Source: a bacterium (lineage in GTDB: Bacteria > JAJVIF01). From it: a stretch of DNA of 64,000 bases. Location of the stretch: positions 1,550,001 through 1,614,000 of the forward strand of contig JAJVIF010000001.1 of assembly GCA_022072165.1 (NCBI GenBank), written 5' to 3'. Within the stretch, counting starts at the first letter, position 1, and each line of letters begins with the position of its first letter. The notes below the pieces were generated by a model. That model worked only from the letters and a program-made list of their open reading frames with translations, searched no databases and was not told the origin of the DNA. Below, piece by piece: positions 36,353 through 63,165 of this stretch. A program made the translations under genes and the position numbers.

Positions 36353-36520
36353 CCCGCTTTTAATGCGCCTTAGCGAGATTTTGCCGGACTGAAAGGTCCC
36401 GCGATGCAACCTTTGGCGTTGATGGGGCATCCCAGTCAGCAGAGAAAGCGTGCGCTGACGGTTGCCCGTCACTCGGCGCTTACCCACGACTACATGACCC
36501 CGACTGGAGCCCGCTGCCCT

Positions 36521-37129
36521 ATGTCCCACTTCCCGCAACGCCTCCGACCCGCCACGTCTGGCCTGATGAGCCGGCGTATGTCGGTGGCTCTGCTGCTGGT
36601 GGGAGTCGCACTGCTGCAGCTTGGCTGCTTCACGCCGGTGGCGAAACACCAGTATGGGCCGTCGTTGAGCGAGCAGCCTGCGGCGACTCTCGAAAAGAGT
36701 CAGGCCGCCGGGATCGCCGCCCAGCGGGAAGAGCGACTTGCCGCCGGGACGGATCAGCGGGGCGGGTTTGGGACTGTCCCCCTGGCGGCGCATTTTCTGG
36801 GGGATGTAAACAGCGCCGTGCAGGAGGCGCAGTCATCGGGGATACGGCAACGGATTTTTGTCCTGATCACCGATGGGCAATGCCAGGAGTGTGAACGTTG
36901 GGAAAAGATTCTGACTTCCGATGTCATCCTCCGGGAGAAGCAGCGGGGGTGGATCTTTGTCCGGGCGGATGTGACGGTGAATCCGAAGGTGCTGGACCGG
37001 TACAAGCTGACGGTGGATGATCTGCCGGTGGGGCTGGTCGTGAGCGACCGGGGGAACGAGAACTACCGGTATGTGAAAGCGCCGTCGAGTGTCGAGGTGA
37101 TGCACCAGTGGCTCCGCGACCGCTGGTGA
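36521..37129 (+). CDS. Thioredoxin-fold lipoprotein
   Basis: A 202-residue protein with a lipoprotein-type signal (MSVALLLVGVALLQLGC) and a thioredoxin-like domain: IFVLITDGQCQECERWEKIL with a CxxC motif, WIFVRADVTVNPKVLDRYKL, then VDDLPVGLVV, where the usual cis-Pro is in DLPVG. Such proteins act as periplasmic disulfide reductases or thiol carriers. It lies directly before the Cys-rich cassettes on the same strand, so it might keep their cysteines in the right state; this is an inference. The start is uncertain: ATG at 36521 or 36566. Confidence 0.72.
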   Translation: MSHFPQRLRPATSGLMSRRMSVALLLVGVALLQLGCFTPVAKHQYGPSLSEQPAATLEKSQAAGIAAQREERLAAGTDQRGGFGTVPLAAHFLGDVNSAVQEAQSSGIRQRIFVLITDGQCQECERWEKILTSDVILREKQRGWIFVRADVTVNPKVLDRYKLTVDDLPVGLVVSDRGNENYRYVKAPSSVEVMHQWLRDRW

Positions 37130-37182: not shown

Positions 37183-37219
37183 TTGACGTGTGTGTGTGTG
37201 TGTGTGTGTGTGTTACTTT
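37183..37219 (+). promoter_or_regulatory. Promoter-like element 1 with a TG-repeat spacer (25 bp)
   Basis: TTGACG (37183-37188) is followed by (TG)12 plus T, 25 bases in all, and then TACTTT (37214-37219), whose end is six bases before the ATG at 37226. The preceding TGGCAC is shared with the second copy. A 25-base spacer is too long for normal sigma-70 use, so this copy may be in a low or off state unless the TGT just before TACTTT works as an extended -10. Confidence 0.6.
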
Positions 37220-37225
37220 GAGGGC

Positions 37226-37783
37226 ATGGCTACTCCATGGACGAAATCTTTCTGCACCTTGGCGCTAACTTGCGCTATGTGGGTGGCCATGGGAGCCATG
37301 CCCAACATGAGTGCAACAAATGCCAGCCCAATGGCTGGATGGTGTCTCTGCCATGGCTGCCTTCTTCATGAGGATCCCGTGCTGTCGTATGAAGTGGATA
37401 CATGCCCGAACCTGCATATCTTCTGCTGGGGCGTGCCGATTCCAGTACCGATCACTGTTTTGTGTACCGTCAGATTTAGAGAGAATATTTACTCCTTTAC
37501 TGGCTCCGCGCACGAGCAGGACGGTGATTGCCAGGACCAGGGTATGGTGGAGTGCGGCAAGCTCCACCCACGCCGGTGCAGAGAATTCCTGGGAGTCGAC
37601 TGCAGTGCAGACATCTCTGTGGAAGTGCTGGATGAACTGATCGGGCTATTCCCGGGATGCGACCTCCCAGGAAATCTGATACAGATCCGCGAAGCCTGCG
37701 AGATTACAGTGCGCCAGCGTTGGGAGGGTCCGCCAGTCTGTTCAGATGCCATCGCATGCGACCAGTCGGAGGGCTGCCCCTGA
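37226..37783 (+). CDS. Secreted Cys-rich protein, family 1, cassette copy 1
   Basis: A 185-residue protein of unknown family. A hydrophobic, Met-rich signal-like N-terminus is followed by 15 cysteines, beginning with GWCLCHGC and including VECGKLHPRRC and a C-terminal VCSDAIACDQSEGC. All 15 align one-to-one with those of the protein at 40714. It is the first gene of a four-gene set and overlaps the next gene by one base (TGATG), so they are co-translated. The ATG is placed where a leaderless transcript would begin. Inferred to be exported and disulfide-bonded; function unknown. Confidence 0.72.
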   Translation: MATPWTKSFCTLALTCAMWVAMGAMPNMSATNASPMAGWCLCHGCLLHEDPVLSYEVDTCPNLHIFCWGVPIPVPITVLCTVRFRENIYSFTGSAHEQDGDCQDQGMVECGKLHPRRCREFLGVDCSADISVEVLDELIGLFPGCDLPGNLIQIREACEITVRQRWEGPPVCSDAIACDQSEGCP

Positions 37784-38949
37784 TGCGTCGTATTCTCCCA
37801 CTACTGCAGGCGTCACTCCTGCTGGCCATCCTGTTTCCGACTGGTTGTGGTTCAGGCCAGCGACAGCCAGCGCCTGCCTCTGCAGAGCGATCTACGGAAC
37901 TCACAGCAACCGTGGACCGACGGTTTGGTGACTGGGACGGCGAAAAGGAGTGGCGGAACAGATCAGGACGGGACGATGACCCTGTGGCGGATCTCTTCGC
38001 CCGGCGCCTGGAGATAACAGTACCGACCGCCGCTGATGCTGACAGAATCCGGAGTTGGCAAACGGGGGAGACTGGTCCCTGCATGAAGCAAATCTGGGAC
38101 AGCCATCGGGGCCTGAGAGAAGCGCTCGAGTTCTATTGCTGGTCTCACGATGGAGCATGGCCGACGGCGGTACAGGACGTGGCCCCGTACTGCTTTAGCT
38201 GGCCAGTGAAGGGACCACGGAGTACAGAGTTGATCCCGCTGGTTGACGCAGAAACATTTAAGGTCCGAGTCGCTCAGCATGACAAGCTGGTCTTCCCATT
38301 AGAGCAGATGCTGGAACTGCAGATGCTGGCCCTCGACCTCACGGAAGATGGCGCGTCCGTTTACCGGCCGGCCATCGAGACTGGTGGCACCCGCTGTCTG
38401 TTCATGGGTGTCCCGGAGGCATGCAGCCGATACCCTGGGTCTACGCCGCGATACCGGCGCGAGTCCATCACCACGCTCGCTTCATTGCCGCCGGACGCTC
38501 TCCGGACGAGATTGAGCAAGGCTTTCAACTGGGCACCCCCGGAAGAGATTCGTGTGGGATTCGCAGCCGACGCGCTGCAGGAGCTGATCCGGTGGGCCTG
38601 TCTAAATCTCTGGCGGCCCCCGGAGAACCTGGACGAGATGCTGCAGTTCTCGGGGCATCAGGTGATCAATTTGGCCGCCGTCCCACCGGAGGAGGCAGAC
38701 ATCCTTGTCGAGTTTGACGGCGAGTCCAGCTACCGGATGACACTTCGCTATATGCCCAACCTGGTCGTGCAAAGAATCTATACGATTCACCGGGTGGCTC
38801 ATCCGCACTTCAGCGCCAGCATCATTGGCCCCACCCGATTTGAAGAGCTTCGCCCGGAAGCCAGTTTTGTACCGTTTGCCAGCTTCCGCCTCGCGACTCC
38901 GTCGGCAGCCGCTATGCCGTATCAGCTCAGCCCGCCAGGAGGATCATAA
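37783..38949 (+). CDS. Lipoprotein, family A, cassette copy 1
   Basis: A 388-residue lipoprotein (LLLAILFPTGC) of unknown family. It shares with its copy-2 relative at 41270 the blocks LREALEFYCW (IREAL in copy 2), FSWPVKGPRSTELIPL, a helical LIRWACLNLWRPPENLDEML, SGHQVINL and ADILVEFDGESSYRMTLRY. The ATG at 37783 overlaps the stop of the Cys-rich gene before it. The helix followed by a P-x-x-L-x-E-L/M turn resembles the folded part of some pseudopilins, though no pilin signal is present. A membrane-anchored partner of the Cys-rich proteins is a fair guess. Confidence 0.7.
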   Translation: MRRILPLLQASLLLAILFPTGCGSGQRQPAPASAERSTELTATVDRRFGDWDGEKEWRNRSGRDDDPVADLFARRLEITVPTAADADRIRSWQTGETGPCMKQIWDSHRGLREALEFYCWSHDGAWPTAVQDVAPYCFSWPVKGPRSTELIPLVDAETFKVRVAQHDKLVFPLEQMLELQMLALDLTEDGASVYRPAIETGGTRCLFMGVPEACSRYPGSTPRYRRESITTLASLPPDALRTRLSKAFNWAPPEEIRVGFAADALQELIRWACLNLWRPPENLDEMLQFSGHQVINLAAVPPEEADILVEFDGESSYRMTLRYMPNLVVQRIYTIHRVAHPHFSASIIGPTRFEELRPEASFVPFASFRLATPSAAAMPYQLSPPGGS

Positions 38950-38957
38950 ACTTTGCC

Positions 38958-39524
38958 ATGCAAACACCTGCTTCACAGTTTTCATCACGGGTCATGCCCT
39001 GGTTCCGTGGAGCCATGACTTCGCTTGTCTTACTCTCCATCGCCGCTGCTCCTCCAGTGGTGCAAGCAGAACCCTGCGACAAGGCTTGCTGTCTGGCCGT
39101 TGCGGTGAATGAAGGTGTATGGACCATCACCCTTCCATACTACTACTGTCATTGCGAAGGTGGGATTCCCCACACCTATGTGGCATTTCTGGAGGAGGTG
39201 ACGTATCACTTTGATGTGCGGAGCTGGACCTATGCCTGCGGGGAGGAGTGGGAATGTACGCAGGTCTCCACATATCCTGAGGCGGTCATCTATTGCGGGG
39301 AGATTGAACAGATGCTGCACCCTCGCATCGGACCTGACTGGATTCGTGCCGAGGGGCCAAAGAATCAGACCATCTGTGAGCAATGCTATATCCCAGGGGT
39401 CTGCTTCCCAAGTGGGCCTGCCTGGGCTGACTTACCTCACATGTGCGGCATCTGTGTCTGTGACGACCCCTGCCATTGCCATGTTGAATGGCTCACACCG
39501 CTCATCTACTGCCCCGCTCGATGA
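38958..39524 (+). CDS. Secreted Cys-rich protein, family 2, cassette copy 1
   Basis: A 188-residue protein with a signal peptide (TSLVLLSIAAAPPVVQA) and 17 cysteines in the mature part. Blocks include CDKACC, YACGEEWECTQVST, ICEQCYIPGVCF and MCGICVCDDPCHCHVEWL. All 17 cysteines align with those of the protein at 42447, and parts of the two genes are identical in DNA. The family is not one I recognise. It follows the lipoprotein gene by eight bases. Dense paired cysteines could make disulfides or bind metal; an extracellular disulfide-rich domain is more likely given the signal peptide. Confidence 0.74.
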   Translation: MQTPASQFSSRVMPWFRGAMTSLVLLSIAAAPPVVQAEPCDKACCLAVAVNEGVWTITLPYYYCHCEGGIPHTYVAFLEEVTYHFDVRSWTYACGEEWECTQVSTYPEAVIYCGEIEQMLHPRIGPDWIRAEGPKNQTICEQCYIPGVCFPSGPAWADLPHMCGICVCDDPCHCHVEWLTPLIYCPAR

Positions 39525-39541
39525 CACCTGGAGGTGTTCCG

Positions 39542-40549
39542 ATGCTTCTACACTTCGCAAGTCGTATCCATCCATTACTCAGGACCGTTATTTACATGGC
39601 CTTTCTCGGCTTTCTGTCATTGCTCGGCTGCCCCCGGAATTCGCCTGAGAACTCCCCTGCTGCCCTGGACCCAGCAGCTGCCCGGCAGACGGCTGGGTTC
39701 CCGGCGACCGTAAAGCTCGGTGATCGTGATGTTGAGCTGCGGTCGACCAGTAGTCCGGAACTGCGACAACTCAACCGAGTCGCAAAAGCGCTGGCGACTG
39801 CGGTCTCCTGGGGCGCGAAACAGGACGCTACCGTCTTCACGGACTGGTTTCAGCAACCCGCACCAGAACTGTCCGCTCCGTTGCCCGTCATCTGGGTGGA
39901 TCCGCCGGGGCATCCGGTGCCGATGACACAGGATCGGTCGGTGCCGCGGCGGATCTGGCCCTCTTTCAAGGATGGCACGTTGCAGATCCTGACGCTGACC
40001 ACGCCGGAGGCAAAGACTGCCCGAGGCCTTCAGGCTATCGATCCGGAGCGCCGGAGCACCCCGCTTCCGCCGCTGCCTGACGGCAGAATCATCCCTACAC
40101 TGGATCCCTGTGCGCCGCTGCCCCCCGCCGGGCGGCTCCCACTGGGGATCGTGGCTGCTCTGGCCGAGCTGCATCACATGGCCCAGTATGAGCCGGGGAA
40201 ACTCCGCTCCGAACTGGAACTCATGGTCCCGCCACAGACCCAGGCCCTCCTGGCGCAGGAACTGGGACCTATTCGCCTGCTCATGTGTCGTGCCCGGGGA
40301 ATGGCTGCCCTCGCCTTCACCTATCAGGGAGAGTCTTACGCGGCCCTGGCAATCCAGCAACGCTGGTCCATGGGACATACCGGGGAGCACTACACATTTG
40401 GGCATGTCACCAACGAGCCACCGGAATTGATGGCGAGGTCGGTCATGATCGAGATGCTGGATTCCCAGAAGCTGCGTCCGGGCGGCATGTACGACTTCGC
40501 GAACCAGGCGCTCTGGGAGGAGGTCTCGGTCGGCCTGGGCGACCTGTGA
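39542..40549 (+). CDS. Lipoprotein, family B, cassette copy 1
   Basis: A 335-residue lipoprotein (AFLGFLSLLGC) of unknown family, last gene of the first cassette. Shared with the copy-2 protein at 43047 are KALATAVSWGAK, PELSAPLPVIWVD, SFKDGTLQILTLTTPE, LPLGIVAALAEL and VPPQTQALLAQEL. The start at 39542 is supported by GGAGGTG seven bases upstream; a longer frame from 39488 overlaps the Cys-rich gene and lacks this. Function unknown. Confidence 0.7.
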   Translation: MLLHFASRIHPLLRTVIYMAFLGFLSLLGCPRNSPENSPAALDPAAARQTAGFPATVKLGDRDVELRSTSSPELRQLNRVAKALATAVSWGAKQDATVFTDWFQQPAPELSAPLPVIWVDPPGHPVPMTQDRSVPRRIWPSFKDGTLQILTLTTPEAKTARGLQAIDPERRSTPLPPLPDGRIIPTLDPCAPLPPAGRLPLGIVAALAELHHMAQYEPGKLRSELELMVPPQTQALLAQELGPIRLLMCRARGMAALAFTYQGESYAALAIQQRWSMGHTGEHYTFGHVTNEPPELMARSVMIEMLDSQKLRPGGMYDFANQALWEEVSVGLGDL

Positions 40550-40677
40550 GCGCACCTGCCTGCGGAGAAAACCATTCCAATCCGCCTGAAGTGTGATGCA
40601 CTCATGGCTCTGTGCTGGTGCTGCGAGGTCATGCCGCATCTATCATCAATGAGGTTTCATCATTTTGCTGCTGGCAC

Positions 40678-40706
40678 TTGACGTGTGTGTGTGTGTGTGT
40701 TAGCGT
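40678..40706 (+). promoter_or_regulatory. Promoter-like element 2 with a TG-repeat spacer (17 bp)
   Basis: TTGACG (40678-40683), a spacer made wholly of (TG)8 plus T (17 bases) and TAGCGT (40701-40706), ending seven bases before the ATG at 40714. TGT just before the -10 gives an extended -10. The TGGCACTTGACG start matches element 1. With the ideal 17-base spacer, this copy should be the active one. The rest of 40550-40677 shows no gene. Confidence 0.62.
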
Positions 40707-40713
40707 ATTTGCT

Positions 40714-41265
40714 ATGATTCTCCGACCGTTGCAGGCTCTGCTGGCATTAAGCATTCTGCTAGCAAGCCTACTCTGCGTGAACACCGTCAGATCAGAGGAA
40801 GGCGACCCACCTTCAACAGATGTACCCGGTTGGTGTTTTTGCCGGGGCTGTGAACTCGATTTTTTGGAGCTTCAGCTTGCGGAGCAGGAGACTTGTGGAG
40901 GCCTGATGGTGATCTGTGCCAGTGGTCCTGTCCCTGTGCCATTTCCAATCGATTGTCTGATAACTTATGACGCCAAGATTTTTACACTCGGAGCAGCCGC
41001 TGCAGAACCCGAGCCTGGAGACTGCGATGAGCTCGGCTTAATTGAGTGCGGCGCATCACATGTCGAACTGTGCAAAACTTTCCGGGGTGCGATGTGCTCC
41101 GCAGCAGCTTGGGCGGTGTTTCTCGACGAGTTTAACTTCACCTGCGGCATCCCGTATCAACTCGAAATCTTTGAGTATTTATGTCGGGAAGAAATCAGGC
41201 AAACGCTGGAAGGACAGATCATTTGCACAGGCACTGTCTCCTGCGACGCCACGGAGGGTTGCTGA
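40714..41265 (+). CDS. Secreted Cys-rich protein, family 1, cassette copy 2
   Basis: A 183-residue paralogue of the protein at 37226, with a clean signal peptide (LQALLALSILLASLLCVNTVRS). The 15 mature cysteines match copy 1 in order and context: GWCFCRGC, LIECGASHVELC, GAMC, and a C-terminal IICTGTVSCDATEGC. Between the cysteines the two proteins differ at most positions, so cysteines are the conserved part. The frame is open upstream through the TG repeat, but the ATG at 40714 begins the signal peptide. Confidence 0.76.
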   Translation: MILRPLQALLALSILLASLLCVNTVRSEEGDPPSTDVPGWCFCRGCELDFLELQLAEQETCGGLMVICASGPVPVPFPIDCLITYDAKIFTLGAAAAEPEPGDCDELGLIECGASHVELCKTFRGAMCSAAAWAVFLDEFNFTCGIPYQLEIFEYLCREEIRQTLEGQIICTGTVSCDATEGC

Positions 41266-41269
41266 ACCA

Positions 41270-42457
41270 ATGAAGGGCGGCATCAGATTCGTACTGATAA
41301 CCGGGTTACTGCTTGCTCCAGGATGCGCCAGTAAAGCTGCGCGCCCAGCAGCACCGGGACAGGTGTCCCCAGCCACAACTATCAGGAGGCCAGCGACTGA
41401 TGGAGAGTCGGCAAGTCAAAAACAGGGAACCAGTATTGAAGAGGCAAAGGCCCTGGTTGCGGAAGGCAGACCCCTTGAAATCTTTTCTCCCACTCCCGCA
41501 CAACGAATCGAGATCGAGGGCTGGATCGCTGGCGACCTGGCGACCTGCTGGCCCAAGATGTGGAAGTCTCCATTTGACATACGGGAAGCGCTGGGGCGAT
41601 ACGAGCGATACCGGGGAGAGCCTCCGCCGGATATGTTACTGACCGGCCTGGCACCGTTTGTCTTCGCCTGGCCAGCCCGCGCCCCAGGGAGTAGTGAACC
41701 AATCCCACTTATCCATCCGGTAGACGCTGCCAAGTGGCAAGCCTGGACTCAGCGCGCTCAACTAACGCAAGAGGAGATGCTGGATGCTCAGGCATTCGCC
41801 CTGGAGCTGGACCAGGACTCGAGGCGTCTGACGGTACCTTTTCGCCAGCGAGCCCTGATCGAGACGTACGGCTTTATAACAATCCCGCTGACAGACTCAC
41901 CTGTCCGTGCGCAAGTTAAATACCAGCCCCGATCATCGATGCAAGAGGCCCTTCCCCGCCTCGAACGGATGCGTGATCATCGTCGCTGGGGCGAGCTCAA
42001 CGATGTCGAGTCATGGCTGATACCGGATGAACTCCGTCTCTATCTTGCGGCGTCAGACATCATGAATCTCATCAGAGTAGCGACGGTGAACAGCTGGCAA
42101 GTACCAGGATCGCTCAGCGAGCTGGAGCGCTATTCAGGCCATGTGCTGCTGAATCTTGAACCCATCGATGCTCAGCACGCCGATTTGGTCGTGGAGTTTG
42201 ATGGTGAAGCCAGCTATCTGTTTACGCTCCGTTACCCGGCAGGTGTGACGCATACCATCCAGTACCAGATCAACCGCCTTGCCTGGCCTGAGTGGCTTTC
42301 CTCCAAGCTGGATCCTACAGGCAACAACAACAAGTATCAGGGCAAGAACTACAAGCCCTTCGCGGCGTTTCACCTGACTTCATCCTCCGATGCTCAACTT
42401 CCTGTCAGGCGGATAACTGCAAGCCACAAGCACGAAGGAGCGACCGATGAAGAGTGA
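41270..42457 (+). CDS. Lipoprotein, family A, cassette copy 2
   Basis: A 395-residue lipoprotein (FVLITGLLLAPGC), paralogue of the protein at 37783. Shared blocks are DIREALGRY, FAWPARAPGSSEPIPLI, NLIRVATVNSWQVPGSLSEL, SGHVLLNLEPI and ADLVVEFDGEASYLFTLRY. It begins four bases after the stop of the Cys-rich gene and its own stop overlaps the next gene by 11 bases. Function unknown; predicted to be membrane-anchored and to face outward. Confidence 0.7.
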   Translation: MKGGIRFVLITGLLLAPGCASKAARPAAPGQVSPATTIRRPATDGESASQKQGTSIEEAKALVAEGRPLEIFSPTPAQRIEIEGWIAGDLATCWPKMWKSPFDIREALGRYERYRGEPPPDMLLTGLAPFVFAWPARAPGSSEPIPLIHPVDAAKWQAWTQRAQLTQEEMLDAQAFALELDQDSRRLTVPFRQRALIETYGFITIPLTDSPVRAQVKYQPRSSMQEALPRLERMRDHRRWGELNDVESWLIPDELRLYLAASDIMNLIRVATVNSWQVPGSLSELERYSGHVLLNLEPIDAQHADLVVEFDGEASYLFTLRYPAGVTHTIQYQINRLAWPEWLSSKLDPTGNNNKYQGKNYKPFAAFHLTSSSDAQLPVRRITASHKHEGATDEE

Positions 42458-43031
42458 TAACCAGCCGGTCTTTCTGGCTGTACATCTTAGACGGCTGATC
42501 CCGGCTGTCGCGAGCTTGGGGCTAGCTTTGCTGATCCTGGCACTGCCCAGCATCGCGCCTGATGTCGCGGCTGAGGAAGATTGTGACAAGCACTGCTGCC
42601 TCGCCGCAGGAGTCGTCGACAGCGTCTGGCGGTTCGAGATGGACTACTACCAGTGCTGGTGCATAAATAATGAGCCCATGGGGGAGACCAGTTTCAGGAG
42701 GAGGGTCGCATTTGAGTTTGACGTGTTTTCCTACACCTATGCCTGCGGGGAGGAGTGGGAATGTACGCAGGTCTCTACCGACCCCAAAGCAACCATTCGC
42801 TGCGGCGATACAGAGCAGATGCTGTTTCCCCGGTTAGGGGAGAACTGGCGGCGCGCTTATGGGCCCAAGAGCCAGGCGATCTGCGAAGAGTGTTACATCC
42901 CAGGGCAGTGCTTTCCGCTGATGCCTAACTGGGCCGATCTGCCCAAAATGTGCGGCATCTGTGTCTGTGACGACCCCTGCCATTGCCATGTTGAATGGCT
43001 CTCGCCTCTGGTCGATTGTTCCCTCAAGTAG
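42447..43031 (+). CDS. Secreted Cys-rich protein, family 2, cassette copy 2
   Basis: A 194-residue paralogue of the protein at 38958: signal peptide (LGLALLILALPSIAPDVAA) then 17 cysteines in the same order, with CDKHCC, YACGEEWECTQVST, ICEECYIPGQCF and MCGICVCDDPCHCHVEWL. Two stretches of the gene (near 42739-42777 and 42953-43003) are base-for-base the same as in copy 1, unlike the more diverged lipoprotein genes beside them. Function unknown. Confidence 0.76.
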   Translation: MKSDNQPVFLAVHLRRLIPAVASLGLALLILALPSIAPDVAAEEDCDKHCCLAAGVVDSVWRFEMDYYQCWCINNEPMGETSFRRRVAFEFDVFSYTYACGEEWECTQVSTDPKATIRCGDTEQMLFPRLGENWRRAYGPKSQAICEECYIPGQCFPLMPNWADLPKMCGICVCDDPCHCHVEWLSPLVDCSLK

Positions 43032-43046
43032 CAAAGGAGAATCCCC

Positions 43047-44027
43047 ATGCTTCATCGGCTTTCGCAGCACCACGGTCGCATCGCCATTGTCCTAGGTCTC
43101 TGCTGGTCCCTCCCGGTGGTCGGATGCCTGAGTGGCGGTCCAGGGGCAACCCCAGGCCAGACAACACAACAAAAACCACCTCATATCGCCCCCCCGGTTC
43201 GTCAGCCTGCTGACATTCGCGAGCCGGTATCGGCGGAGTCGCTCTATCTCAGCGATCAGGCCCGGGCGCTGGCCTTCGCGATTTCCTGGGGTGCTCGCCT
43301 CAACGCGGAGATCTTTTCCCGGTGGCTTCAGATGGAGCATCCAGAGCTGCAGGCATCACTCCCGGTCGTGTTGCTCGACAGCCACGGCGAAGTCGTCCCG
43401 TTTACGACCCGGCACAGCGATCCCCATCGCATCGAAGTTGCGTTCAAAGATGGCATCGCACGTCTGCTCGTGATTCGGACCCCAGAGCGTTACGAAGGCT
43501 GGGACTTCAGCAGCCGTCCTCCAGGCTTTTGGTCAGAAAACCCAGTCAAGGGGACCAGCTACACAGCCACGCTTCCGGTAATCGATGCTGGAGCGGGGCT
43601 GCCGGAAGCCGGGCTCATCCCTCTCGGGATCGCCAGTGCGTTAGCCAGCCTCCCCGACCTGGAAGGCTACCAGCAGGGCGACTTACGAGAATTGCTCCGG
43701 CTGGCAGTTCCTCCGCAAACAATCGCGTTACTTTCGCAGGATGTCAGTCACCTCCGGGTACTCCGACGTCGCGGCTATGGCTGGGTAGCGCTGGTCTATG
43801 AGGTCAATGGACAACGAATCGCGGCAACTGCCCAATCGGGCAAGCTCGACATGATTCGCAAGCCGGGTGGTGGCTATGAACTCCGCCACAGTGCGACTGG
43901 TGGCGCGGGTCGCTCCGTTCACATCACGTTGCTCAATGAAGTACTCATTTCATCACAGACCAGGATGTACGCCTTTGATGACCCGGCGCAATGGGAACTG
44001 TTGACGACCGATCTCTCAGCATTGTGA
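43047..44027 (+). CDS. Lipoprotein, family B, cassette copy 2
   Basis: A 326-residue lipoprotein (IVLGLCWSLPVVGC), paralogue of the protein at 39542. Shared blocks are RALAFAISWGAR, PELQASLPVVLLD, AFKDGIARLLVIRTPE, LIPLGIASALASL and VPPQTIALLSQDV. It closes the second cassette; the next gene has its own promoter at 44040-44068. Function unknown. Confidence 0.7.
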   Translation: MLHRLSQHHGRIAIVLGLCWSLPVVGCLSGGPGATPGQTTQQKPPHIAPPVRQPADIREPVSAESLYLSDQARALAFAISWGARLNAEIFSRWLQMEHPELQASLPVVLLDSHGEVVPFTTRHSDPHRIEVAFKDGIARLLVIRTPERYEGWDFSSRPPGFWSENPVKGTSYTATLPVIDAGAGLPEAGLIPLGIASALASLPDLEGYQQGDLRELLRLAVPPQTIALLSQDVSHLRVLRRRGYGWVALVYEVNGQRIAATAQSGKLDMIRKPGGGYELRHSATGGAGRSVHITLLNEVLISSQTRMYAFDDPAQWELLTTDLSAL

Positions 44028-46365: not shown

Positions 46366-47376
46366 CTAATGCGTTGTGGAGGAGGAGGGCTGAGCTCCCA
46401 ATTCGGAATCGCCAGTTGGCGCGATAGCAGGGAGCATTGAGCCTGGCTCGTACTCCCCAAGGTGGCCGCAGTATCTTGTGGCTGTTTGCCCTTGCACGTT
46501 AACGTAGTGGAAGCCGATCCAGGTTCCTTCCCCTGTTGAAAGGTCTGAATAGTCGCCGGGAGTGGGCTGGCTGATCGGCACGTTCTTCATGGGCGCTCCT
46601 GTATACGGGTTTATCCAACAGGCAGGGTTGAGTCCACCGTAAATGAGCGCAAGATGTTGGAGCGATGTAGGGGCTCGATGATCCGGTGAAGATCGGACGA
46701 TCTCGGTGACACAAGCATTGATGATGTTCACCATGAGTACTAGTTTGGCGTTCGCGGTCGTCGGCTCCGGAAGTGGAGCGTCCGAATTTTGTGAGGAGGT
46801 CAGCTTCGAGGACCAGGCTTCGGTTTGCGACTGTTGGTACTTCAGGTCGCTCCAATGAGGCTCGTGTGGCGAGACAATAGCGATCCAGCGCTCCACATCA
46901 CCGTGCACTCCGGGCGGCGGGTCGAATCCCTCGTACTTCGGGATCGTGCCCTGGACTTGCATCGCGCGGAGTTTGGCGGAGAACGGATTGTCGCTGCTTA
47001 ACGGGCGCTCACCTACAAGTAGGGTATAGCCCAGTTCCTGGTTGCGCGAGTATGTGAGTTCGAAGGCATCGCGGAGGCTGTTGAACGGCACATACCGATT
47101 CAACTGCTGAAAGGATGACGGCGCAGGGGATTCCCCGATCGCAGGCCACATCAAGATGATGTGGTCGGCTACCAGTCCCGAGATATCACCGCCGCTTAAG
47201 GTCGACATGAAGCCGAGCCATTCCTCGTTCGATCCCACCGCAGGGCCCGATGCCCGTTGAACATCTGTTGGTCTCGGCCCGACTACGCCAGCGTCGGCAG
47301 TCTCCCTGGGTGACTGACCCGCTTTACAGCCACTGATTAAGGCAGCGGCCATCAGTACGGCGATCCAGTGTTTCAT
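46366..47376 (-). CDS. Lipoprotein distantly like the cassette lipoproteins
   Basis: A 336-residue lipoprotein (WIAVLMAAALISGC). Features recalling the cassette family-A proteins are PFNSLRDAFELTYSRN (compare LREALEFYCWSH) and a late helix with a proline turn, LMVNIINACVTEIVRSSPDH, then APTSLQHL. It also has WINPYTGAPMKNV, a phrase common in the folded part of pseudopilin-like proteins. The start at 47376 has CGGAG seven bases upstream. It is the second gene of a two-gene operon with a Cys-containing secreted protein. Confidence 0.68.
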   Translation of the reverse strand: MKHWIAVLMAAALISGCKAGQSPRETADAGVVGPRPTDVQRASGPAVGSNEEWLGFMSTLSGGDISGLVADHIILMWPAIGESPAPSSFQQLNRYVPFNSLRDAFELTYSRNQELGYTLLVGERPLSSDNPFSAKLRAMQVQGTIPKYEGFDPPPGVHGDVERWIAIVSPHEPHWSDLKYQQSQTEAWSSKLTSSQNSDAPLPEPTTANAKLVLMVNIINACVTEIVRSSPDHRAPTSLQHLALIYGGLNPACWINPYTGAPMKNVPISQPTPGDYSDLSTGEGTWIGFHYVNVQGQTATRYCGHLGEYEPGSMLPAIAPTGDSELGAQPSSSTTH

Positions 47377-47423: not shown

Positions 47424-48116
47424 CTAGTTGTGATAGTGACTGCCATAGTCACCATTACAATGGGGTGCAGCACAGCCCGTTGTGGAGCCGGTCGTATGCA
47501 TGAGCCGGACCCAGGGGGATCCAGTCCCTACATGACAGGTGGCGAGGTGGCCATTCGCCATCTCTGACCAGATCGCGTTCTTCAGGGCAGTGACATGCGC
47601 ACCGTTGTAAGTCCCTGAGACATGCTGGACCTCGATCTCGATAAGGTCAGTGTCAGTGCGATCCCACCCCCCATCTCCGCCTTCGCCATCGTCTGGGTTG
47701 CAGAACTTAGCAACGTTCCATTTGACCGAGCCAGCACACCCAGTAGGCTGTGTCAGGTCTCCGCATGCCGATCCATTAGAGGCGCAATGCTGACCGTCCA
47801 AATTGAACTGATTGTGGTCAGGGCTAACCGTGCAGGGAGGGCTGCCAGAAGAGGTATACAGACAGTAGTGCAACCGGACCCGCATTTTGTAGACCGATGA
47901 CGTGCCTGGAATCGTATGATCGATCCAGTCAGGCCAGCTGCCTCCGACGTAGTAGGTTCCGGTACCGCCACCGCAGGGTGACGTGCCCAGGAACGTTTGC
48001 ATGTAGAGTGCTGGTCCGTGACTTTCATACGGACACATGATGGAAGCTTCCGCCCGATGAGGGACGTCCGCTACCAGCACCATGCAACAGATCACCAAAA
48101 GTAAGAAGCACTTCAT
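47424..48116 (-). CDS. Secreted Cys-containing protein
   Basis: A 230-residue protein with a signal peptide (MKCFLLLVICCMVLVADVPHRAEA) and about a dozen mature cysteines, in segments such as SPCGGGTGTYYVGG, QHCASNGSACGDLTQPTGC, CHVGTG and GCAAPHCNGDYG. I recognise no family, and the cysteine pattern does not match the plus-strand cassettes. The start at 48116 has AAGGAG seven bases upstream, and a TATAAT lies at 48160-48165. It is paired with a lipoprotein gene 47 bases downstream. Confidence 0.68.
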   Translation of the reverse strand: MKCFLLLVICCMVLVADVPHRAEASIMCPYESHGPALYMQTFLGTSPCGGGTGTYYVGGSWPDWIDHTIPGTSSVYKMRVRLHYCLYTSSGSPPCTVSPDHNQFNLDGQHCASNGSACGDLTQPTGCAGSVKWNVAKFCNPDDGEGGDGGWDRTDTDLIEIEVQHVSGTYNGAHVTALKNAIWSEMANGHLATCHVGTGSPWVRLMHTTGSTTGCAAPHCNGDYGSHYHN

Positions 48117-56286: not shown

Positions 56287-57192
56287 CTACCCTCCAAACG
56301 GTACGGGAATGACAAACTGGTAATCCTGCGCCGGGACCTGCCCACTCCAGGCGAACTCATCGACCAACGTGCGCTGTAGCCGACGCACCGGCAGGGGTCC
56401 GGTGATCGCGCTCAGGGGCTGCACCGCATCGGCCCAGGCGGTCGCCTCCATGAACGCGATGCCGTTGAAACGTCGCTCGAACGGCGGCTTGCCCCGCTTC
56501 CCTCCCTGATAGGACGCTGCCCCATGACTGACCTCCAGCGTCCAGTCCCCAGAGGGCAACGGCACGGGGTCGGTGAATAGCGATGGCATGGCTGACGCTT
56601 CCGGCAACGGCGGATCGTCCTGCAGCAGAAAGGCGTACTCAGGCAGATCAAGACGAGGCCAGATGGTGTTCGCGAACGACGGACCCAGCGTCGCGAGATT
56701 GCAACTGATGACCGCAAGTCCGTGATTGACATACCACGGGTCGGCATCCCGCTGGTACCAGGTCATATGGCGACGCTCCAGCCCATGTCCCAGGATGAAG
56801 CCAGCCCCTCCGGGGCGCAAGCGAAGCCAGGGAGTCCGCTGGTCGGGCAGGTCGGGATCACAAAGCAGCAGGGCAAATCGATAGTAACGATCCCGCTTCA
56901 CAATCTGCCCGAACTCCGCAGAGTAGCTCTGTTGCACCCGTTCATACCCCGTGAAGGTGTACCCCGCCAGTGCAATCAGCTCCGGCAGGGAACCCCCGCC
57001 TGGAGTGCGGAGACGGACCACCGAGGGGCGGAGTCGCGGCGCATCGAATCCGCTGCCGCCATAGGTGTGATGCTCCCAGGTGACCCGCAGGGCGCAAAGG
57101 TCGACTTCCTGCGGAATGCGATGAAGTCGGAGGGGCGCATCGGGCCAGAGGGGAGTGGTGAAGTCGGGATAGAGCACCAGCGGATCGGTCAT
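56287..57192 (-). CDS. Phage-module protein of unknown function (301 aa)
   Basis: A 301-residue protein without signal peptide or membrane helices; aromatic and Pro-rich (YDFTTPLW-like opening VLYPDFTTPLWPDAPL, GYERVQQSYSAEFGQIVKRD, GDWTLEVSHGAASYQGGKRG). No family recognised. Three-base gaps to both neighbours place it in the tail operon; a distal tail or baseplate protein is likely. Confidence 0.6.
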   Translation of the reverse strand: MTDPLVLYPDFTTPLWPDAPLRLHRIPQEVDLCALRVTWEHHTYGGSGFDAPRLRPSVVRLRTPGGGSLPELIALAGYTFTGYERVQQSYSAEFGQIVKRDRYYRFALLLCDPDLPDQRTPWLRLRPGGAGFILGHGLERRHMTWYQRDADPWYVNHGLAVISCNLATLGPSFANTIWPRLDLPEYAFLLQDDPPLPEASAMPSLFTDPVPLPSGDWTLEVSHGAASYQGGKRGKPPFERRFNGIAFMEATAWADAVQPLSAITGPLPVRRLQRTLVDEFAWSGQVPAQDYQFVIPVPFGG

Positions 57193-57195
57193 GGA

Positions 57196-59535
57196 CTAGC
57201 GCACCTCCACCAGGACTCTCCGCCAGCGACCAAACACCATCGGACTCCGGGCGACAATCAGTCGTGCGCTCGCTCCGGGAAACCACTTCGCGACCTGGAC
57301 GGTCTCCCCGACTTCCACTTCGCCCATGATGGGACTGCATCCCAGGTTCCGGTGCAGACGACCCTCGATTTCGACATCCGCGATGAACTGCCCGGCGATG
57401 TTGCGACCAATCGCGACGACGGTCCCGACCCGTGTCTCCAGGGGGTCATCCGTCATCGGCGGAACCAGATTCAGCGCCAGCGAGGGAGTCACCGGGCCGA
57501 TGCGCGACCGGGTCACGCCGGTGGCCGTGCTGATCTCCCAGTGATGCTGACCGCAGCGCCAACGCTGGGGAGTCGCGCTCCCAGCATCGGACTGCGCTAT
57601 CACATCGCCTGGTCGCAACAGCGGTGTCAGCGGAGCAACGCATCCCCTTTCCTCGGCCACCGCGTGTGACGCCCACAGAAAAATGCTGCCGACCCGGATC
57701 GCCAATCGCTCAGTGGTCAGACGCTCATCCCGGATCGCCGGGGCGTAACGCAACTCAGCTTCGGGGACTCCGGCCACCCGCACTTCCACCCGGACCTGCC
57801 CCAGCGTGAGGTCATGGATGCCGGCATCGACGGCATACCCCTGTCCCCAGACGATGATGTGGTACGGCGTGAGCTCTTTCAGGTAGCGACCATCAGCAGT
57901 CGCAGCGAGCCAGTCGGCGTACTCGGCCTCCAGGTCGCGAATCAGATTGTTCTCCGGATCGCTGTCTACCCAGTTCATCCGATAGCCAGGTGCCCGGGCT
58001 TCGATGCGATACCGCCCCAGCGGCACATCCACGAAGCGGTAGTACCCGCGGGCATCCGCCAGGAGGGTCACGGTGTCTGGCAGCGGCAGGTCGCCCTCCA
58101 GACGGATCCGTGTGACTTCGGCAAAGGGAACGGGCTGCGGCTCCCCTGCGTCGGAAGCGAGGGCATCGATCACCTGCCCCGCCAGCACGAACCGGGGGTC
58201 GCCGTTTTCATCGAGGACAAACGGAGGGTCCCCCGCGAGGTCGGTCACGACCCAGGGGAGTTCCAGCTCGATGGTCGCCCAGCGATACGGACCGATCACC
58301 TCCATGCGCGGGGGACCGACCCGACGTGCCCCCTCCACGAGGAGCGTCGCCGGGTCGAACAATGTCGCGTTGAACGTGAAGGTGATCCGGAGTGGCGGCG
58401 GCAGCGTGTCGGTCCGGACCGGCGGCTCCGGCTCCCAGAAGCCTCTCGTCTCCCCGAGACGTACCCGCCCACCCGCGCTGGGATCGGCGTTGTAGGGCCA
58501 TTGCGGACGGGTCGCCACCAGTCCGCTGTCAGTGTGGCCGAAGAGCTGGATCGCTGTTGGCGCTTGTTCGGGCCGGGTCCCGGCATCAGACGACTCCAGC
58601 ACGGCCCGGGGATAGCGCATCGTCAGTTGCGGACTGCGACTGGCGGGTCCAACCTCGTGCAGCACCAGGAGCCGTCCTGCGGCACAGACCTGGGCTCCCG
58701 CCAGTCGCGCGATCTCCTGCATCAGCGCTAACGGCGAGCGGCCTGCGCCATCAAACTCCACGATCGGGAAGTCGAGGAATCCCAGACTAATGTCAGTGAA
58801 CCAGGGGTCCTGCAGCCCTGCAAAGAGCTCCCGGCAAATCGTATGGGCCGTAGGGAGTGCCTCCACGACCCGCGACTCCCGAACACTCTGTACGGTGAAG
58901 CCCCCTACCTGACGGGAACCGAGGGTCAGACGCTCCACCCGCAGCGTCCGTCCCCAACGCTGCATCACCACCGCCGCGTACGGGGGCTCCAGACGGTGCA
59001 TCGGTTCGGCGAGGGTCAGGGTCACGGTCAGGCGACCCGCACTGTCCGCCGACTCTTCGCAGGAAATCACAAAGCCTTCGAAGAGTGTCAGCTCTGTTCC
59101 AGGAACCAGTTCCATCGAGACCCGCAGGACAGGATCGTCTGCCTGCAGCGCGTGCCACTGCTCCAGCAGCTCGATGCTCCCAGTGAGTCGGGCTGTATCG
59201 GGAGCCGGTCCCAGCGACTGGTGCCCCTCGACACCCCACATCAGATCGCTGAGGTCCGTAACCACCGGCGTGGCATCCCAGGATGTCAACGCCCGGACCC
59301 GCAATCGTGGCTGCGGCAGTGTCACCACTTCGCCAGCGGCCAGTCGTTCCACCAGCGGCGACATCACTTCCACAGCCTGCTGCACGACAACAGTCCCACC
59401 TGATGGCACCTGCCCATCCGGGAGCCGTCGCACGGCATTGGTGTCGGGGTCCCAGGCGACATCGACGCCGAGTACCAGCGGCGTTGGGGGGTCCAGGAGC
59501 CAGCAGATCGGCGGCAGATAGCGCGGCGATGACAT
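57196..59535 (-). CDS. Large phage tail hub-like protein with an inserted Ig-like domain
   Basis: A 779-residue protein, the largest of the module. The first half (LRVRALTSWDATPVVTDLSD, RLTVTLTLAEPMHRLEPPYA, SPLALMQEIARLAGAQVC) resembles tail hub or baseplate proteins of the gp27/GpD type. Near residues 490-530 a carboxypeptidase-regulatory-like domain appears (LLADARGYYRFVDVPLGRYR, then IEARAPGYR). The C-terminus (VGTVVAIGRNIAGQFIADVE) looks like an OB-type domain. Assignment rests on pattern and gene order. Confidence 0.55.
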   Translation of the reverse strand: MSSPRYLPPICWLLDPPTPLVLGVDVAWDPDTNAVRRLPDGQVPSGGTVVVQQAVEVMSPLVERLAAGEVVTLPQPRLRVRALTSWDATPVVTDLSDLMWGVEGHQSLGPAPDTARLTGSIELLEQWHALQADDPVLRVSMELVPGTELTLFEGFVISCEESADSAGRLTVTLTLAEPMHRLEPPYAAVVMQRWGRTLRVERLTLGSRQVGGFTVQSVRESRVVEALPTAHTICRELFAGLQDPWFTDISLGFLDFPIVEFDGAGRSPLALMQEIARLAGAQVCAAGRLLVLHEVGPASRSPQLTMRYPRAVLESSDAGTRPEQAPTAIQLFGHTDSGLVATRPQWPYNADPSAGGRVRLGETRGFWEPEPPVRTDTLPPPLRITFTFNATLFDPATLLVEGARRVGPPRMEVIGPYRWATIELELPWVVTDLAGDPPFVLDENGDPRFVLAGQVIDALASDAGEPQPVPFAEVTRIRLEGDLPLPDTVTLLADARGYYRFVDVPLGRYRIEARAPGYRMNWVDSDPENNLIRDLEAEYADWLAATADGRYLKELTPYHIIVWGQGYAVDAGIHDLTLGQVRVEVRVAGVPEAELRYAPAIRDERLTTERLAIRVGSIFLWASHAVAEERGCVAPLTPLLRPGDVIAQSDAGSATPQRWRCGQHHWEISTATGVTRSRIGPVTPSLALNLVPPMTDDPLETRVGTVVAIGRNIAGQFIADVEIEGRLHRNLGCSPIMGEVEVGETVQVAKWFPGASARLIVARSPMVFGRWRRVLVEVR

Positions 59536-59556
59536 CAGATCAATCCTCGTGTGACA

Positions 59557-59988
59557 TCACTCAGGCAAGGGATCCAGCAACACCGGGTTCTCACCGGTTA
59601 GTACCACCGACACCCCCCGGCTGACTTCCAGTGCAGCGGGCATCGCATCTAGCAGGGCGGGACTCACGATGAGCCCGATGATGGGAATCCGTCCGGACTG
59701 GCGCCACCGGACAGCCAAGGGGTGTGAACGCAGCAGCGCGGTCCCCCACTGCACGGCCAGTGGATGCGAGATCGGTGGTGCTCCGGCGAGTCGCAGGCTC
59801 AGCGGCAGACGCTGACTCACCGCCCCGGCGATGCGGAGTCCCAGGAGCAGGGTGGTGGTCGGCGCGAGTTGCCAGGAGACGCCCAGGGGTCGTGTGGTGA
59901 CTCGTGGAGTCCCCACCCGATGCCCCAGGGGATAGCGTCGGCTCACCCCGGCGTAGCAGCGATAGCTCAGTGGATGGGTGGCCGTCAT
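59557..59988 (-). CDS. Phage-module protein with short internal repeats (143 aa)
   Basis: A 143-residue protein in which a short motif recurs: YPLGHRVG, RPLGVSWQ, LPLSLRLAG, HPLAVQWG, HPLAVRWR. The repeats are 15-25 residues apart and would give a series of beta hairpins. It is followed by a hydrophobic stretch (IIGLIVSPALLDAMPAALEV). No family recognised. It lies two bases after its upstream neighbour, in the tail part of the run. Confidence 0.6.
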   Translation of the reverse strand: MTATHPLSYRCYAGVSRRYPLGHRVGTPRVTTRPLGVSWQLAPTTTLLLGLRIAGAVSQRLPLSLRLAGAPPISHPLAVQWGTALLRSHPLAVRWRQSGRIPIIGLIVSPALLDAMPAALEVSRGVSVVLTGENPVLLDPLPE

Positions 59989-59990
59989 AA

Positions 59991-60902
59991 CTATGCCGAC
60001 ACGATGCGCGCCTGGAGCTGCGCGGAATAGGGATTCCCGGCGGCGGTCCGACCCGGTGCCGCCTGCGCCCGGATCCAGAACGGGATCGATTCCTCCGGGT
60101 CCATGGCTCCCAGGACCAGTTCCGGTCCCACAAAGGTGCCGGGTGCGCCCGACTCATCGGGAGCTAACTGGAAGTCCTGGAAGCCGGCGGAGATTTCCAC
60201 TTCCCCAGGTCCCTCGGCGACCTGCAGCAGTTCGATGACCACAGTTGGACCATCCGGCAATTCCAGCAGAATCACCGGGCCATCCAAGGTTCCCGCAATC
60301 GTGCCGACTTCTTCGCCGTTGAACTCCACCTCGAACTCATAGGTCGAGTCCGGCACCCAGGCGATGCCCCAGACACCCACCGGTGTCGTCAGGTCGAGAC
60401 TCGCCTCCGCCACGGCCTGGATGAACGGGGATTCGCCACTGTTGCGGACCACGGCATCCGGACGAATCAGGAGCCGGGCATCCACGCCCCCGGTTTCACC
60501 CACATTGCGGGCATACATTCGATGGGGCGTGCCGGTTGCCCCCGCGACCAGCGTCCCGGCGTGCCAGCCGACATCAATCTGGCTGATGTAGTGCGTCCCG
60601 GGGATCAGTACGCCGAACTCCAGCTGGATGCCGGGAATGATGCTCCCGGTACTCACCGCGCCGCCTCCTGGCAGCACGAACTCGACCGGCATCCCGGTGG
60701 CCGGTGTCATCGTGCCCCGCCATACCAGGCCGTCATGCTCCAGATCGATCACATAGCTGTCGGCCAGTGCGAAGCCGCCGGTCCGGGCGGAAGCTTCCAG
60801 CAACGACGCTGTCACAATCGCGCTCCCGGCGACATTGGTCAGATAGACCTGCCGACTCTGCAATCCGGTGCTGTCTTCGAATACCTGTAACTCTGCTGCC
60901 AT
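59991..60902 (-). CDS. Phage tail protein, probably tail fibre or tube-associated (303 aa)
   Basis: A 303-residue protein starting at 60902 (GAGGT six bases upstream) with beta-rich repeats (VYLTNVAGSAIVTASLLEAS, HRMYARNVGETGGVDARLLI, TVVIELLQVAEGPGEVEISA). Segments such as ARNVGETGGVDARLLIRPD and FWIRAQAAPGRTAAGNPYSA are like receptor-facing or spike proteins of tailed phages. Exact role not known. Confidence 0.58.
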   Translation of the reverse strand: MAAELQVFEDSTGLQSRQVYLTNVAGSAIVTASLLEASARTGGFALADSYVIDLEHDGLVWRGTMTPATGMPVEFVLPGGGAVSTGSIIPGIQLEFGVLIPGTHYISQIDVGWHAGTLVAGATGTPHRMYARNVGETGGVDARLLIRPDAVVRNSGESPFIQAVAEASLDLTTPVGVWGIAWVPDSTYEFEVEFNGEEVGTIAGTLDGPVILLELPDGPTVVIELLQVAEGPGEVEISAGFQDFQLAPDESGAPGTFVGPELVLGAMDPEESIPFWIRAQAAPGRTAAGNPYSAQLQARIVSA

Positions 60903-60951
60903 CAGAGACCTCGCTTCTGCATCTGTAATCGGCGACCTTTTCCGCCACCTG

Positions 60952-61281
60952 CTACCCCACGACCTGACACTCCACGGCCACAGTCCAGCGATCGCTCCCC
61001 AACGTCGGCGACCGCTCAATCCTGGTCAGCACGATCTCCCAGGAGTCGGCACCGAGGGTTAGCGTGGTGTTCGCACCAGCGCCCCAGAGCGACTCCAGGT
61101 CGGTCAGCTCGTCCGCGGTAATCCCCTGGCCGGTCAGCTTCAGGCGCTGCCTGCGACCACCGCGCCAGAGGAGTCCCCCGCCAGTGAGGGTGCTGACGAG
61201 CAGCCCACCGACATCCCTCACTGCCACGATTTCCGGCGTGAGTCCCAAAGTCCGGCCATCGATGCTCACCTGTATTGCCAT
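60952..61281 (-). CDS. Small phage tail-region protein (109 aa)
   Basis: A 109-residue beta-rich protein (VSIDGRTLGLTPEIVAVRDV, TLTLGADSWEIVLTRIERSP, WTVAVECQVVG). Size and position between head-joining and tail genes fit a tail or baseplate adaptor protein. Three bases separate it from the upstream gene; 49 bases follow it. Confidence 0.6.
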   Translation of the reverse strand: MAIQVSIDGRTLGLTPEIVAVRDVGGLLVSTLTGGGLLWRGGRRQRLKLTGQGITADELTDLESLWGAGANTTLTLGADSWEIVLTRIERSPTLGSDRWTVAVECQVVG

Positions 61282-61284
61282 GTG

Positions 61285-61656
61285 CTAACTCCCTGTCACC
61301 TGCCAGTCTTCGAGTCGCCAGACCATTTCCTCACGCACCTGACCCGCCTCCGCCACCAGCGACCACTCCCGCAAAACAGCCCGCGCTGATTCCAGCATCA
61401 CCGCATCTGAGTGAAGCCGACAGGTGGTCGGCTGGCCCAGCCAGGCCATCCCTTGCGGCGGATCGCTGGCGTACGCGACACAGCGGAGTTCCAGAGTCCG
61501 GCTGGTGGTCAGATGGAAGCGATCCGGCGAGTCCGCGTTGCGTGGGAGCGCGAGTCCCTGGTCGGCAAACTGCAGCTGACAACGGGTGATCTGCCAGATC
61601 GTTCCTGCCCCGATTTCCAGCGACATCTGCGGTATTGCCAGTAACGGTGGTGTCAT
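61285..61656 (-). CDS. Small phage tail-region protein (123 aa)
   Basis: A 123-residue beta-rich protein (MSLEIGAGTIWQITRCQLQF, RTLELRCVAYASDPP). The ATG at 61656 overlaps the upstream stop (TAATG), which decides the start over a GTG at 61677. No family recognised. Confidence 0.6.
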   Translation of the reverse strand: MTPPLLAIPQMSLEIGAGTIWQITRCQLQFADQGLALPRNADSPDRFHLTTSRTLELRCVAYASDPPQGMAWLGQPTTCRLHSDAVMLESARAVLREWSLVAEAGQVREEMVWRLEDWQVTGS

Positions 61657-62177
61657 TACACGTCCCCTTCCAGCCACCAGCTCGGCCCCTGCAGGACGAG
61701 CCGGCCAACACAGTGCGCCCAGGGACCCGATGATGGAGTCATCGGCTGTGCACGTCGATCCCCAGCCTGCCCCTGACGCTCCAGATGCAGCAGAAGGGTC
61801 CCGCGCTGTATCAGGTCGGAGTGCACATCGTCAGGGTCCTGGGGGAGCAGCAACGGCAACATGCCGACCGCACAGGCCTGCTGCAGGGCATCCCACCACT
61901 CCCGGACCGGCTCCTGCCACACGCCAGCTGCGGTCAGCAACGTGACATCACAGGTCAGCTGCAACCAGCCCCCCTGCTCGTTCAGGACCGATGAGACTCG
62001 CTGCCCCAGGCAGGGTTCCCACTGTCGACTCCGTTCTTCCAGGACCAGCAGCGGCAGCGAAGATGGCGTTGCGGGGGGCGGGCCTGGCACCACGGTGAGA
62101 TCCGGGAGCGCGGTCGCCAGATGCTGGATCAACGACACCAGCCACCAGCGGGTCGATGTTGTAGCAACCAGCGTCAT
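61656..62177 (-). CDS. Probable tail completion/terminator protein (173 aa)
   Basis: A 173-residue protein. The helix and beta pattern WWLVSLIQHLATALPDLTVV, QLTCDVTLLTAAGVWQEPVREWWDALQQA is that of tail terminator-type proteins, which cap the tail and join it to the head. The order after connector and head-closure genes agrees. It overlaps the upstream gene by four bases. Confidence 0.55.
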   Translation of the reverse strand: MTLVATTSTRWWLVSLIQHLATALPDLTVVPGPPPATPSSLPLLVLEERSRQWEPCLGQRVSSVLNEQGGWLQLTCDVTLLTAAGVWQEPVREWWDALQQACAVGMLPLLLPQDPDDVHSDLIQRGTLLLHLERQGQAGDRRAQPMTPSSGPWAHCVGRLVLQGPSWWLEGDV

Positions 62178-62560
62178 GACGACACCTCCAGCGGTCGACA
62201 GCGCAGGAGGCGACAGGCACCGTGCGGATGCTGCTCATGGACTGACTCCACCTGCCAAAGTCGCCCATCAAGGGAGACCACCGCTCCCGCTGGGACCGCC
62301 GCCAGGGTGATCAGATCCATCGCTCCGGCCTCCGGAGCCAGCGTGGTGTACCAGAGACGCGACTCAAGACCCCGGCGCAGCATCGGCACCTGGCCCTGCA
62401 GTCGCCACTCGACCGCCGGTGGTTCCCCCCGGGTGGCATCGCCGCCGGTGAGCACGCTGACCCACCAGGGGACCGACTCCAGTTCGCCGATGTCCGCCAG
62501 CTGTCGCCACCAGCGACGCAACCAACTCACCGACGCTCCCGCTTTTACGTTTCCTGCCAT
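62174..62560 (-). CDS. Probable head closure (stopper) protein (128 aa)
   Basis: A 128-residue protein with a beta-barrel-like ending (AVPAGAVVSLDGRLWQVESV, ACRLLRCRPLEV), typical of head-tail stopper proteins that seal the filled head. It overlaps the connector gene by 16 bases and the next gene by four. Family call is tentative. Confidence 0.5.
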   Translation of the reverse strand: MAGNVKAGASVSWLRRWWRQLADIGELESVPWWVSVLTGGDATRGEPPAVEWRLQGQVPMLRRGLESRLWYTTLAPEAGAMDLITLAAVPAGAVVSLDGRLWQVESVHEQHPHGACRLLRCRPLEVSS

Positions 62561-63063: not shown

Positions 63064-63165
63064 AGGGCACCTCCATTGGCCGGAGAATCAGCGACGTGTC
63101 GCCACGCGCCGATTCCCCGGCTCCCGCACACTCAGGTCATCACACTCTGCTCACGCCCGAATGCC

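Follow-up and report, generated by a model that had tools for sequence, protein, structure and literature searches.

A 64,000-nucleotide stretch of a bacterial genome (lineage JAJVIF01; assembly GCA_022072165.1, contig JAJVIF010000001.1, forward-strand positions 1,550,001 to 1,614,000; hereafter the window) contains a tandemly repeated cassette of genes for cysteine (Cys)-rich exported proteins and lipoproteins. The cassette lies at 37226-44027, where eight forward-strand genes follow the order Cys-rich 1 (C1), lipoprotein A (LA), Cys-rich 2 (C2), lipoprotein B (LB) twice in succession (Table 1). This arrangement had been proposed in a preliminary description of the window, and it held up together with most of what was said there of the individual genes. 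All 15 mature cysteines of family 1 and all 17 of family 2 align between copies while most other positions differ; in codon alignments the identity at non-Cys positions is 24% and 49%, respectively. Two extra cysteines in C1a both lie inside its signal peptide. The lipoprotein copies are indeed related, and between-copy identities found with BLASTP are far above chance for all four families: 33% for C1 (3e-29), 32% for LA (1e-44), 61% for C2 (2e-73) and 34% for LB (3e-46). Synonymous sites are saturated or nearly so, yet protein identity is retained. Thus, the cassette genes are real and under purifying selection, and their duplication is old. By sequence, the products are exported or lipid-anchored, in line with the surface or secreted type assigned to them earlier.

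As had been noted, genes within each set overlap or nearly touch, with intergenic gaps of -11 to +17 base pairs (bp). The second cistrons of four-gene cassettes have no promoter of the TTGAC-repeat type described below, and each such cassette is therefore probably one operon. A single eight-gene operon spanning both window cassettes was rejected because each has its own promoter; the second, with its own GT repeat, sits between them, and the cassettes are thus two operons. Directly upstream of the first cassette is a gene for a thioredoxin-like protein with a lipobox and a CxxC motif (36404-37129, +), which could aid disulfide formation; no counterpart was seen at other cassettes.

The basic unit of the cassette is a pair, consisting of a gene for a Cys-rich exported protein and a lipoprotein gene directly downstream. 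Nineteen pairs were found in about 1.25 megabases (Mb) of the 3.26-Mb genome, 18 from sampled stretches and one through its promoter repeat. The stretches read were all of contig C4, 144 kilobases (kb) made up of the window and its surroundings, and 40 segments of 20 kb at even spacing; they cover about 38% of the genome and were supplemented by searches, so that 19 is a lower bound. The evenly spaced sample held seven pairs in 0.8 Mb, from which we infer some 30-40 pairs genome-wide. For 18 of 18 Cys-rich genes the next gene encodes a lipoprotein (gap of -38 to +91 bp), compared with a frequency of about 14% for lipobox genes overall. The mature Cys-rich protein usually starts with a CC motif, and its partner is about 310-390 amino acids (aa) long. 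Cys-rich genes of this type were always accompanied by a lipoprotein partner in the sampled stretches. Lipoprotein genes also occur alone, at locus L107 and at three places in another genome, G002. Two of the 19 pairs are weaker members: W3, which has no profile link to the rest, and C106, which is apparently frame-shifted (L106 16516-17064, -); its Cys-rich reading goes on in another frame, and its promoter has a run of eight A residues. Another Cys-rich exported protein, at L077, is metal-binding-like and appears unrelated.

Most pairs sit outside any four-gene cassette. The full order C1-LA-C2-LB occurs at four places: the two in the window, C4:122.6-125.7 kb, and contig C2:424.7-427.6 kb. 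It had been suggested that the four products act together. The genes are tightly linked and their order recurs at two further places in the genome; however, the basic unit is the pair, and nothing shows four-way action.

The lipoproteins fall into subfamilies LA, LB and L1, and the Cys-rich proteins into C1, C2 and CC. In all 12 classifiable pairs the combination is C1-LA, C2-LB or CC-L1 (permutation p about 1e-4, a value to be read with the caution that tandem duplicates are not independent and that the weak family links of C81 and C100b rest on low profile scores). Judged from these sequences, the co-segregation of partners supports complexes within a pair. The Cys-rich proteins mostly have 13-18 cysteines in a mature part of about 100-170 residues, and these cysteines are kept while the surrounding sequence varies; apart from the frame-shifted C106 the mature proteins are acidic, and they have plain Sec signals. 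Most LA and L1 lipoproteins share two segments, each with a helix followed by a GxxPxxxxxL motif, which weakly resemble the region after the helix in type IV pilins and pseudopilins. With hhalign, two such segments matched the pilins of the window at 48% probability and each other at 62%. The lipoproteins have neither a prepilin peptidase site nor the hydrophobic N-terminal helix, carrying a lipobox signal instead. The segments are perhaps pilin-like, a weak resemblance that we regard as a lead only.

The strongest clue to how the system works, absent from the preliminary description, is the presence of GT repeats in front of both window cassettes (Table 1). At C1a, (GT)13 ends 12 bp before the start codon, and a -10 candidate, TACTTT, follows a 25-bp spacer. 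At C1b the spacer is 17 bp, followed by a weak -10 candidate, TAGCGT, at 40701-40706. A sigma54 promoter (TGGCAC...TTGC) at these tracts was rejected by eye, since the -12 element is a misfit. Across the genome, most units have a TTGAC(A) -35 box with a short tandem repeat after it. There are four GT tracts of 13-mer or longer and seven AG/CT tracts of 14-mer or longer; each of these 11 tracts immediately precedes a gene for an exported Cys-rich protein or a lipoprotein, and nine start at a TTGAC -35 sequence. Of the roughly 15 strong short-period arrays in 1.215 Mb, 10 fall in the 120 bp upstream of a unit, and such positions amount to about 0.2% of the sequence. At two places outside the window the repeat forms the spacer between good -35 and -10 boxes. 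At 315.5 kb on contig C2 the promoter reads TTGACT-17-TATAAT with (CT)10 as the spacer, and at 427.6 kb it reads TTGACA-21-TACAAT, again with (CT)10; here eight units rather than ten would give 17 bp. The 8-10 bp repeats of C75, C79, C94 and C4_59C are found not in the spacer but in the leader or next to the ribosome-binding site. The duplicated units C79 and F79 share a 9-bp repeat, with 4.6 copies in the former and 3.1 in the latter, which indicates that the promoter repeats change in number.

The string TTGAC followed by (AG)6 occurs at five loci in this genome and is absent from a reversed control; 5 of 384 other genomes have it at a single site. These single sites, in L173, L174, L175, L177 and L178, belong to unrelated genomes and are possible switchable promoters. 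It should be noted that the AG-repeat search found one new unit directly; TTGAC with a dinucleotide repeat could therefore serve as a search key to reveal switchable surface repertoires in other uncultured bacteria. At L089 19194-19237, a 10-bp repeat, CTGCATCCTC, is present in 4.4 copies before a gene for a Cys-rich lipoprotein, with TTGACA upstream.

Several paralogues are mosaics. C2a and C2b share two identical patches (Table 1) in a background of nearly saturated synonymous sites. In L81/F81 and L79/F79, the 3' ends are 94-99% identical and divergence is strong elsewhere. The F79 gene (L079 9921-10877, -) joins a lipoprotein domain in frame to the start of a Cys-rich protein, namely its signal peptide and first Cys, and a duplicated metG 3' end adjoins it. 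Together, the identity patches, the diverged remainder and the F79 fusion fit recombination among paralogues.

The four families had been reported as unrecognised, and profile and library searches left them so: the cassette products have no match in Pfam, NCBIfam, PADLOC or PHROGs, and searches of PDB sequences with the C2 pair and with a profile of the lipoprotein A superfamily gave nothing credible, the matches to the lipoprotein profile being signal peptides or under significance. The survey of relatives covered three genomes of the same class and about 380 others. G002, from another family of the class, has one Cys-rich and lipoprotein pair (L144 5371-6942) and three further genes of the lipoprotein superfamily, all solo. 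On the point raised earlier, whether the genes are kept together in relatives, the outcome is thus mixed, with one pair retained and three lipoprotein relatives that stand alone. The approximately 380 other genomes gave module-level or signal-peptide matches only, with no full-length relative. Cross-genome matches to LA, LB and C2 were weak, and were signal-peptide or chance matches at the loci read; those to C1 were short and weak and were dismissed, their loci not having been read. A scan of genome contigs with C2b found no relatives. No resource that we searched yielded these protein families, the pair architecture or a repertoire on this scale; the proposed switching mechanism is of a known kind.

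We consider it reasonably probable that the window cassettes are part of a genome-wide repertoire of phase-variable, two-part surface modules. In each unit the first product would be a small Sec-exported Cys-rich protein, probably locked by disulfides, and the second a lipoprotein with a predicted outer-membrane anchor that probably retains or displays the Cys-rich protein of its own pair. Transcription of most units would start from a sigma70-like promoter with the TTGAC(A) -35 box, and in many of them the short tandem repeat would form the -35/-10 spacer or the leader next to it. When slipped-strand events add or remove repeat units, the spacing or the leader would change, and the operon would so be turned on, off or down. 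The window promoters are predicted to be ON at C1b, with (GT)9 and 17 bp, and OFF at C1a, with (GT)13 and 25 bp, with the caution that both -10 candidates are weak. In many units the repeat probably switches expression at random, and each cell may have a different surface. Paralogues would also swap patches by gene conversion, and since operons would be switched and patches exchanged, the cells of one population would carry different sets of surface modules, which probably serve to evade phage, predators or competitors. Of this picture, the gene pairs, the co-segregating subfamilies, the positions of the repeats and the mosaic identity are seen directly in the DNA, and the slipped-strand switching, physical pairing, surface exposure and purpose are inferred from it. 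A stronger version of this proposal would make the units a new class of recognition or antagonism system, in which some 30-40 cognate pairs, each made up of a secreted Cys-rich ligand or toxin and a lipoprotein that acts as receptor or immunity protein, are independently switched by promoter repeats and re-assorted by gene conversion, giving each cell a combinatorial surface identity; we think this rather unlikely.

Promoter-spacer phase variation is an established mechanism, as at hifA/hifB of Haemophilus influenzae (TA repeat) and porA of Neisseria (poly-G) (PMC3899988). As in those systems, a short tandem repeat lies between the -35 and -10 sequences of surface-protein genes, where gain or loss of units would shift the spacing around 17 bp. 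The genes described here are unrelated to hifA/hifB and porA, however, and the host lineage is sparsely sampled; in addition, repeats of at least five different sequences are spread over many members of a single paralogous repertoire. What is known of promoter-spacer phase variation comes chiefly from host-associated pathogens and symbionts; in this genome the mechanism seems to drive a large surface-protein family, in a lineage with almost no sequenced relatives. Because the repeats appear to drive it, the gene set gains a testable mechanism, in which repeat length sets expression, and a strong hint of its role as a variable surface.

Several observations weigh against repeat-switched, physically paired modules. 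Although the -35 sequences in the window are clear, the two -10 candidates match at 3 of 6 positions each, and only 12-13 bp separate the GT tracts from the start codons, so that the window repeat could instead affect translation or a leaderless transcript. A clear repeat is missing from four to six units (C1_43C, C4_Ce, C106, W3_C and, in part, C81), and the G002 pair has a normal promoter without one. In the comparison, which used one genome per species, no repeat-length polymorphism within a population was seen. The case for partner interaction comes from gene linkage only; AlphaFold models of C2b and LA2, made from two-row window alignments, had a pLDDT of 35 and 37, and so no fold supports a pair interface. 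The promoter observations would suit repeats that have no part in transcriptional switching, being neutral expansions or tuning translation through the leader, as the leader repeats of C75, C79, C94 and C4_59C would also do. Yet neutral tracts would not be expected upstream of a single functional class in 11 of 11 cases, nine tracts start exactly at the -35 sequence, and two have a consensus-like -10 straight after the repeat; we therefore hold this account to be quite unlikely.

The main rival to switchable surface modules is that the pairs are toxin-immunity systems, since the lipoprotein occurs solo and the Cys-rich gene was never found so. The Cys-rich protein would act against other bacteria as a secreted toxin and the lipoprotein would be the cognate immunity protein in the envelope, with growth of the family through an arms race and the solo lipoproteins (L107 and the three in G002) as orphan immunity genes. 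Linked cognate pairs, paralogue expansion and orphan second genes are likewise features of polymorphic toxin-immunity systems (PMC3482391), in contrast to which no toxin or trafficking domains were found here. The co-segregation of partner subfamilies fits this explanation, the Cys-rich genes have often diverged past detection while their lipoproteins still match, and it would be plausible for such pairs to be phase-variable. A match of one lipoprotein to Imm72 falls below threshold (E 0.025; score 15.2, cut-off 25) and is probably due to chance. However, no toxin domain was detected with Pfam, NCBIfam or PADLOC, all intact-frame Cys-rich proteins are acidic with plain Sec signals, and no dedicated export or processing genes were seen beside the Cys-rich genes. 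The lipoproteins are also large for immunity proteins, and in the C2/LB pair it is the Cys-rich member that is better conserved (61% versus 34%). We favour surface evasion over toxin-immunity as the purpose of the units, and regard the latter as unlikely. A structural coat is a further alternative. In chlamydiae OmcA is a Cys-rich lipoprotein and OmcB a Cys-rich envelope protein, and a disulfide-linked coat has been proposed for them. The linkage of a lipoprotein with a Cys-rich envelope protein is similar here, and the high Cys content kept on a variable background, the constant adjacency of the lipoprotein gene and the thioredoxin-like CxxC gene before the first cassette would all suit Cys-rich proteins that form a disulfide network tied by lipoproteins to the outer membrane. 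But in contrast to OmcA the lipoproteins here are poor in Cys, searches of Pfam and NCBIfam gave no match to the OmcA/OmcB families, and the thioredoxin-like gene is confined to one of the cassettes seen. The modules are moreover multiplied and apparently switchable, and a coat would need neither some 20 divergent paralogues nor switchable promoters; this alternative seems very improbable to us.

Table 1. Coordinates of the cassette genes, their putative promoters and other paired genes
Feature	Sequence	Coordinates	Strand	Description
C1a promoter	window	37183..37213	+	TTGACG -35 candidate 37183-37188, into (GT)13 37188-37213
C1a	window	37226..37783	+	Cys-rich exported protein, family 1; 185 aa, 15 mature Cys
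LA1	window	37783..38949	+	lipoprotein A; 388 aa, lipobox PTGC
C2a	window	38958..39524	+	Cys-rich exported protein, family 2; 188 aa, 17 Cys
C2a patch	window	39228..39268	+	41 bp identical to C2b 42735-42775; likely gene conversion
C2a patch	window	39441..39494	+	54 bp identical to C2b 42948-43001; likely gene conversion
LB1	window	39542..40549	+	lipoprotein B; 335 aa
C1b promoter	window	40678..40700	+	TTGACG -35 candidate 40678-40683, into (GT)9 40683-40700
C1b	window	40714..41265	+	Cys-rich exported protein, family 1; 183 aa
LA2	window	41270..42457	+	lipoprotein A; 395 aa
C2b	window	42447..43031	+	Cys-rich exported protein, family 2; 194 aa, 17 Cys
LB2	window	43047..44027	+	lipoprotein B; 326 aa
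W3_L	window	46366..47376	-	lipoprotein of looser pair; 336 aa; no profile link to other lipoproteins
W3_C	window	47424..48116	-	Cys-rich exported protein; 230 aa, 11 mature Cys; directly upstream of W3_L
Second two-gene family	L185	3995-5769		
Second two-gene family	L186	4029-5788		
Second two-gene family	L187	3619-5488	-	
Second two-gene family	L108	2236-3974	-	
Second two-gene family	G000:C4	113149-114818	-	

A second, unrelated two-gene family was also observed (Table 1). It combines a small Cys-rich exported protein, mostly a lipoprotein of the CLxCLEIYC type, with a lipoprotein of 420-450 aa, and AG or GT repeats lie upstream in four of its five loci. Elsewhere in the window, type IV pilus genes (secretin-like and PilM/N/O-like) were recognised by eye on the reverse strand at 8262-29562, where about 11 prepilin-like genes come after them in an array of unusually large size. 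The region 56287-64000 (-) has the look of a Mu-like prophage, and the product of 63166-63993 resembles, by eye, a Mu-type major head subunit.

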